This document shows, piece after piece, positions 24,121 through 25,135 of a stretch of DNA of 64,000 nt (its first letter is position 1; every line of letters begins with the position of its first letter). The translations under genes and the position numbers were made by a program. This stretch comes from Legionella waltersii (lineage in GTDB: Bacteria > Pseudomonadota > Gammaproteobacteria > Legionellales > Legionellaceae): positions 1-64,000 of the forward strand of contig NZ_LNZB01000038.1 in assembly GCF_001468085.1 (NCBI RefSeq). Reading direction: 5' to 3'. A model generated the notes under the pieces. The model made no database searches and was not told the DNA's origin. It saw only the letters and a list, made by a program, of their open reading frames with translations.

Positions 24121-24149
24121 CTGTTTTACTTAAAAGTATGTGGTATAAT
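24121..24149 (+). promoter_or_regulatory. Promoter for the TPP-riboswitch operon
   Basis: TGGTATAAT at 24141-24149 is an extended -10 (TGn plus a perfect TATAAT). The -35 region is weak, as often with extended -10 promoters. It would start RNA about 13 bases before the riboswitch. Confidence 0.55.
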
Positions 24150-24162
24150 ACAGTCTGTACAT

Positions 24163-24240
24163 TAGGGGTGCCATTTTTAGGAGTGGCTGAGAGGACTATC
24201 CAACCCTTCGAACCTGATCTCATTAGTCTGAGCGGAGGAA
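24163..24240 (+). promoter_or_regulatory. TPP riboswitch (THI element)
   Basis: The conserved THI-box blocks occur in order: GGGGTGCC, GTGGCTGAGAGG, AACCCTTCGAACCTGATCT and a 3' block TTAGTCTGAGCGGAGGAAA. These are the pyrimidine- and pyrophosphate-sensing helices of the thiamine pyrophosphate aptamer. The last block contains the GGAGG Shine-Dalgarno of the next gene, so TPP binding would hide the site and block translation. No separate terminator hairpin is seen. The gene after it starts only six bases beyond the Shine-Dalgarno. Confidence 0.93.
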
Positions 24241-24243
24241 AAT

Positions 24244-24510
24244 GTGACTATTATTACCTTGTCAGGCATTATTGCTTTTATTACTTCCTTTATTGGCTTG
24301 TTGCCACAAATTATTAAATCCTTAAAAACAAAATCAACCCAAGATCTGTCCATGATCATGTTAGTGAATTACGTGGTGTGTTCATTGGCTTGGATTATTT
24401 ATGGCAGTGGTACCGAGTCATTTTTTGTTATCAGCTCCAACGTTATTGGATTATTGGTTAGTGCAGTACTTATTTTTATAAAAAGATACTACGATGCACA
24501 ACCGAATTGA
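24244..24510 (+). CDS. SemiSWEET/PQ-loop transporter, candidate thiamine transporter
   Basis: An 88-residue, three-helix protein of the SemiSWEET (MtN3/PQ-loop) type. It shows the Pro21-Gln22 hinge in LLPQIIKSLKTKSTQDLS, a TM2 tryptophan (Trp50) and a TM3 asparagine (Asn66), the positions that line the sugar pocket in structurally known SemiSWEETs. Two copies make a pore. The start is GTG at 24244; an ATG two bases upstream is followed at once by TGA. A TPP riboswitch precedes it and a thiamine pyrophosphokinase gene overlaps its 3' end by 17 bases. This context argues for uptake of thiamine or a precursor rather than sugar; the transport role is inferred. Confidence 0.8.
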   Translation: MTIITLSGIIAFITSFIGLLPQIIKSLKTKSTQDLSMIMLVNYVVCSLAWIIYGSGTESFFVISSNVIGLLVSAVLIFIKRYYDAQPN

Positions 24511-25135
24511 TTTAGGATTTTACAAGTCTATTGTCTGTCTTAATGGCGATTTACCTGAGGCTTCATTTTTTAAAAGTCTGAATTTGCCAATCATTGCTGC
24601 GGATGGCGCTGCAAATCATTTGTATGAGATGGGTGTGACTCCAAGCATCATCACAGGGGATTTAGACTCAGTTAAACCTACAATCCTTCAGAAATGTCCA
24701 TCCCTGCATTTGCCCGATCAAAGTCAGAGCGATTACCAAAAAACAATGGTTTATCTCAGACAAAAACAGTTGCTGCCATCGATAATCCTGGGGATAAATG
24801 GTGGCTATTTAGACCACATTTTAAACAATATCAATATTTTCATGGACAGTGATTGCTTGTTGTATTCACCTCCGATTAGAGGTTTTGTGATTAAGGAACA
24901 ATGCAAAGCCAGCTTGAGCTTACAAGAAAACACCAAGATTTCCTTAATCGGATTGCCTAATGCAGTATGCTCCTCAACCGGTTTGAAATGGAATTTGGAT
25001 CAGACTCATTTATCGTTCCCAGGCAACACTTCTTGTTTCAATCGTTGCCAACAAACAGACATTGAACTACAAACCCATTCAGGGACTGTTTTGGTTTTAA
25101 TCTATGACATCATCATTTGCGATGCGGGATTCTGA
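24494..25135 (+). CDS. thiN: Thiamine pyrophosphokinase
   Basis: A 213-residue enzyme that converts thiamine and ATP to TPP and AMP. Motifs are IIAADGAANHL (Asp37), GVTPSIITGDLDSV (Asp56 and Asp58) and DQSQSDYQKTM, the version here of the D-Q-x-x-T-D-x-x-K block, where serine replaces threonine. A short C-terminal TPK-binding domain follows (CSSTGLKWNL...). The start lies inside the transporter gene, so the two are translationally coupled under one riboswitch. It would trap incoming thiamine as TPP. Confidence 0.88.
   Translation: MHNRIDLGFYKSIVCLNGDLPEASFFKSLNLPIIAADGAANHLYEMGVTPSIITGDLDSVKPTILQKCPSLHLPDQSQSDYQKTMVYLRQKQLLPSIILGINGGYLDHILNNINIFMDSDCLLYSPPIRGFVIKEQCKASLSLQENTKISLIGLPNAVCSSTGLKWNLDQTHLSFPGNTSCFNRCQQTDIELQTHSGTVLVLIYDIIICDAGF

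Follow-up and report, generated by a model that had tools for sequence, protein, structure and literature searches.

In Bacteroides thetaiotaomicron, the inner-membrane protein PnuT carries thiamine and the gene next to it in the pnuT-tnr3 operon encodes thiamine pyrophosphokinase (TPK) (PMC5613172). The thi operon of Legionella pneumophila is headed by a thiamine pyrophosphate (TPP) riboswitch that was tested with a reporter and called the first L. pneumophila riboswitch (PMC5338858), and a SemiSWEET gene next to TPK was put in print for Legionella cherrii in 2018, where secondary metabolites were proposed as possible SemiSWEET substrates (PMC5972207). We analysed a 64,000-nucleotide stretch of Legionella waltersii DNA (contig NZ_LNZB01000038.1, positions 1 to 64,000; referred to as the window), in which a TPP riboswitch, a gene for an 88-residue SemiSWEET and a TPK gene follow one another on the forward strand. 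The gene pair is that of L. cherrii; the L. cherrii report gives it one sentence in one species and, in the text available, describes no clade, lacks the word riboswitch and lists the SemiSWEET under the same UniProt identifier as a Rickettsia protein (PMC5972207). The L. pneumophila riboswitch, in contrast, precedes a THI5-like biosynthesis operon (PMC5338858). The locus resembles pnuT-tnr3 in its TPP riboswitch, in a transporter gene adjoining TPK and in the trapping logic that this pair suggests (PMC5613172). Unlike PnuT, the Legionella transporter is a three-helix PQ-loop protein without a Pnu profile match. PnuT belongs to the Pnu family and is longer; Pnu and SWEET proteins are related in fold.

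The aptamer (THI element, 24154-24257, +) matched the whole RF00059 model (positions 1-105 of 105) with 62.7 bits against a gathering score of 54.3, in agreement with the complete THI-box reported in a first-pass annotation of this DNA. The SemiSWEET gene (24244-24510, +) starts with GTG, and its product exceeded the Pfam gathering scores of PF04193 (PQ-loop, 42 versus 22 bits) and PF03083 (MtN3_slv, 40.7 versus 23.7 bits). The TPK gene (thiN, 24494-25135, +) encodes a 213-residue protein that scored 116.3 bits with the NCBIfam thiamine diphosphokinase model TIGR01378, passing the equivalog cut-off of 76.4, and displayed the Pfam domains TPK_catalytic (PF04263) and TPK_B1_binding (PF04265). 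The first-pass annotation described the two genes as fused by overlap; 17 nucleotides are common to both open reading frames (ORFs), but they are read in different frames, so that "fused" is wrong and a SemiSWEET-TPK gene fusion was ruled out.

AlphaFold2 predicted three helices for the 88-residue protein (mean predicted local distance difference test score 92.7), and Pro21-Gln22, Trp50 and Asn66 were found where they had been claimed. The protein has the properties that define a SemiSWEET: a length of about 90 residues, three helices and the characteristic fold. Its matches at E 1e-3 were restricted to PQ-loop, MtN3_slv, three SemiSWEET models and one cystine-transporter model. The SemiSWEET_2 model (NF037968) gave an E-value of 3e-15, yet its 56.1 bits lie below the curated subfamily cut-off of 80. 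No Pnu profile of Pfam or NCBIfam matched the protein at E 1e-3, and none of the PDB matches listed was recognised as a Pnu chain, which excludes nothing. The protein resembles the E. coli SemiSWEET (4x5m) in its three helices, PQ hinge, W50, N66 and Y53 (PMC4309421). In the E. coli protein, the walls of the putative pocket include N66 and W50, the latter steadied by T15, and the inner gate consists of F19, M39, Y40 and F43 (PMC4309421).

SemiSWEETs related to that of the window formed a group of their own by residue counts and by the tree; whether the pocket residues of riboswitch-linked SemiSWEETs set them apart as a clade had been posed as a check in the first pass. When 34 clade rows were compared with 34 other SemiSWEET rows, N42, S47 and T14 were present in 34 versus 0, C46 in 34 versus 1, G18 and L40 in 34 versus 2 and L19 in 34 versus 3, counts that are inflated by kinship, 30 of the 34 clade rows coming from one genus. 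N42, S47, C46, G18 and L19 mark the clade. P21 and Q22 (the PQ hinge), W50 and N66 (the pocket Trp and Asn) were present in 34/34 clade rows and, like Y53, are largely common to the clade and other SemiSWEETs. Compared with the E. coli protein, the gate residues R57, D59, F19, Y40 and F43 are replaced, and N42, C46 and S47 are new in the clade; by the E. coli structural roles, what sets the clade apart therefore lies mainly in the inner gate and along helix 2 (PMC4309421). Scored with a profile of their own, clade members reached at least 125 bits and the other SemiSWEETs examined 61 or less. The tree separated the clade from the others with a support of 99/98, with two very long-branched intruders (L118 and L173) inside the clade; a tree constrained to one clade had a better likelihood (p-AU 0.59), and a single clade was not rejected.

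Among 45 Legionella genomes, 30 contained the SemiSWEET, 32 a TPK match (31 over the cut-off), 41 a TPP riboswitch and five thiC. All 30 SemiSWEET genes start with GTG and overlap TPK by 17 to 26 nucleotides, and a SemiSWEET without TPK was seen in 0/45 genomes (co-occurrence, Fisher p 1.4e-9, the genomes being related). TPK without SemiSWEET was found in two genomes, G028 (in pieces) and G039. Both have thiC, and a search of the TPK locus of G039 gave no riboswitch. A riboswitch preceded the SemiSWEET at 29/30 loci, 28 of them at or over the Rfam cut-off; the other, in G008, scored 43.9 bits and has one arm about 85 nucleotides longer than the Rfam model (L021, 1751-1935, -). A scan of species genomes returned 17 related loci (15 Legionella, one Fluoribacter gormanii and one Endomicrobium). 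Each of the 16 loci named as Legionella or Fluoribacter has both TPK and riboswitch, several of them belonging to assemblies already counted among the numbered genomes and adding no evidence; the Endomicrobium SemiSWEET (L050, 35%) had no TPK among the listed ORFs and no TPP riboswitch match.

Beyond the genus, the order (143 genomes) contained one further strong clade member, with the full operon, in a second genus of the family (G479). In the class (369 genomes), SemiSWEET and TPP riboswitch coincided at least twice within family f50 (G094 and G337), each time with an overlapping TPK; this lower bound comes from the matches listed, and 30 of the SemiSWEET matches came with loci. The order of f50 comprises 3 genomes, 2 of which have a SemiSWEET gene. 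A SemiSWEET also overlaps TPK in G402 (family f152). A phylum sample (398 genomes) held no clade member besides the window's own, the best other match scoring 60.5 bits. Taken over the genus (30 loci), G479, G094, G337 and G402, TPK adjoins the clade SemiSWEET at 34/34 loci and a riboswitch is present at 32/34; the clade does not, as might have been the case, mostly lack either. For the controls, the flanks retrieved (at most about 1.5 kb) were searched with the TPK profile and with the RNA model, which recovers 44/45 Legionella loci. These flanks held TPK or a TPP riboswitch at 0/29 other SemiSWEET loci of the class (L081-L109) and at 0/29 of the phylum sample; one locus is in both sets, which leaves 0/57 distinct loci with either neighbour. 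The contrast between the clade and these 57 loci ruled out a chance association. Spread by plasmids was also rejected: matches occurred in 4 of 72,556 plasmid records, with 29.7 to 37.0% identity. A sugar-type contrast was found within the window's family, where genes for a glycogen debranching enzyme and a glycosyltransferase come after the different SemiSWEET of G428 (L141, 336-3998), and no TPP riboswitch was found at that locus.

Seven-helix PQ-loop proteins were encoded directly 3' of TPP riboswitches at six loci (L113, 2770-3537; L114, 3485-4216; L150-L153) belonging to four other Gammaproteobacterial families, and at one locus (L149) a seven-helix PQ-loop gene was followed by TPK. Searches of the open-licence literature, with longer result lists judged by title, turned up no publication of the SemiSWEET-linked riboswitch, the clade or the seven-helix parallel.

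The leader of the window operon is compact. The extended -10 element noted in the first pass reads TGG-TATAAT at 24141-24149 (+); it was not among the listings of a two-hexamer promoter scan of the window, and TGN-TAnAAT stands ahead of the aptamer at every riboswitch-bearing genus locus except L033 (28/29). Since this element ends at 24149 and the 5' strand of stem P1 (ACATT, 24159-24163, +) starts at 24159, transcription would begin almost at the aptamer, the transcript probably starting at about 24156, immediately 5' of P1. In the Rfam alignment and the minimum free energy (MFE) fold, ACATT pairs with AATGT (24241-24245), so that the GTG start at 24244 is covered, all three bases of the start codon being paired in the MFE fold. 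The Shine-Dalgarno sequence GGAGG (24234-24238, +) lies within the aptamer, and its AGG (24236-24238) pairs with an aptamer CCU in the fold. Stem P1 and the riboswitch's 3' end are nearly invariant across the genus: ACATT was kept in 28 of the 29 loci (L033 has one mismatch), and the 17-base 3' end including the GTG start, GAGCGGAGGAAAATGTG, was identical in 29/30 loci, which is more than expected by chance. This predicted pairing geometry suggests a TPP-dependent control by concealed start signals, acting on translation rather than on transcription.

We consider it likely that the clade SemiSWEET is a thiamine importer coupled to trapping by TPK, a likeness to Bacteroides PnuT-TPK that is drawn from operon logic. 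The locus as a whole would then be a minimal operon for the uptake of vitamin B1. Its 88-residue protein would form a SemiSWEET dimer in the inner membrane, through which thiamine would cross by facilitated diffusion, and the TPK encoded by the overlapping gene would phosphorylate the entering thiamine at once to TPP, trapping it and pulling uptake. Plentiful TPP would bind the leader, which is almost solely aptamer; in the closed aptamer, the Shine-Dalgarno sequence would be buried in the core and the GTG start held in P1, so that translation of the transporter, and by coupling that of TPK, would stop. Import of thiamine or a precursor with trapping by TPK had been proposed in the first pass, and the exclusive link of the clade to TPK and riboswitch supports it; transport itself, and thiamine over a precursor, are what we infer.

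The thiamine genes of these genomes provide a context. A THI5-like hydroxymethylpyrimidine (HMP) synthase is full length in 26/45 genus genomes. Among the 30 genomes with the SemiSWEET, 24 have the full gene, two have thiC and four (G000, G020, G023 and G029) have neither; by gene content, these four would therefore have to take up thiamine or a precursor, missing genes being weaker evidence in G029 (94% complete, about 570 contigs). In the window genome, the THI5-like protein is reduced to residues 157-314, and two further TPP riboswitches lie before this half gene and thiL (contig C9; L188, 2480-3126) and before thiE and thiM. The riboswitch before the half gene lacks the overlap into the gene seen at the SemiSWEET. 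A TenA-like gene (PF03070) running out of a TPP riboswitch was observed in four genomes without the operon (G003, G014, G036 and G037; L178, L179, L180 and L184).

Several observations weigh against thiamine import. To our knowledge, the SemiSWEETs of known activity carry sugars. A full THI5-like gene in 24/30 operon genomes indicates that import is not essential there. No riboswitch was found before the SemiSWEET of G024 in the genus, nor at the SemiSWEET-TPK locus of G402, and the invariance of the clade partly reflects kinship, 30 of its 34 rows being from one genus. The MFE of the leader was not below that of shuffled sequences (z 0.16), and the evidence for the RNA therefore consists of the covariance score and conservation. 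Finally, the transcript level of the riboswitch-linked pnuT operon of B. thetaiotaomicron was unchanged by thiamine, a warning against presuming tight control (PMC5613172).

The thiE and thiM genes behind another TPP riboswitch of the window genome, which make up a salvage route, and its half THI5-like gene would also suit a transporter that carries HMP or thiazole alcohol, as a precursor or breakdown product of thiamine, in place of thiamine itself. We regard such a substrate as unlikely: the overlapping gene is TPK at 34/34 loci, not ThiM, ThiD or ThiE, and TPK is established to act on thiamine itself. The protein might still be a sugar transporter merely co-regulated with TPK, for instance to couple the supply of carbon to TPP. 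Two residues of the putative sugar pocket in E. coli, W50 and N66, are kept, but the inner gate residues F19, Y40 and F43 of the E. coli protein are L19, L40 and Y43 here (PMC4309421). The window operon also contains no sugar gene, TPK and TPP riboswitches are both missing from the flanks retrieved for the 57 other SemiSWEET loci, and the same link recurs in the seven-helix PQ-loop lineage. We regard a sugar substrate as unlikely, slightly more so than a precursor. SWEET proteins are established uniporters that can run either way, and the SemiSWEET could in principle export surplus thiamine or act as an exchanger. A start-hiding TPP riboswitch would, however, shut the gene at high TPP, the opposite of what an exporter needs, and TPK would trap thiamine inside; export is very improbable.

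Elsewhere in the window, an 860-residue protein with LepB_N and LepB GAP domains (Pfam), of the Legionella effector type, is encoded at 27703-30285 (-), and a group II intron D1-D4-2 match (RF01999, 77.5 bits) lies at 15193-15300 (+).

With more reserve, the data also lead us to lean towards a broader view, in which the SWEET/PQ-loop superfamily holds vitamin B1 importers recruited at least twice, as a three-helix SemiSWEET clade locked to TPK in the Legionellaceae and two other families, and as a seven-helix lineage whose genes follow TPP riboswitches in four other families. If thiamine import is true, the 88-residue protein would rank with the smallest transporters of vitamins, and the leader in Legionella would be an almost bare aptamer carrying its own Shine-Dalgarno sequence and start codon. 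With its gene context pointing to a single substrate other than sugar, such a clade would show the minimal fold handling a charged vitamin and would supply residues for specificity testing. It would also explain the supply of vitamin B1 in Legionella genomes without a full pyrimidine-making route.
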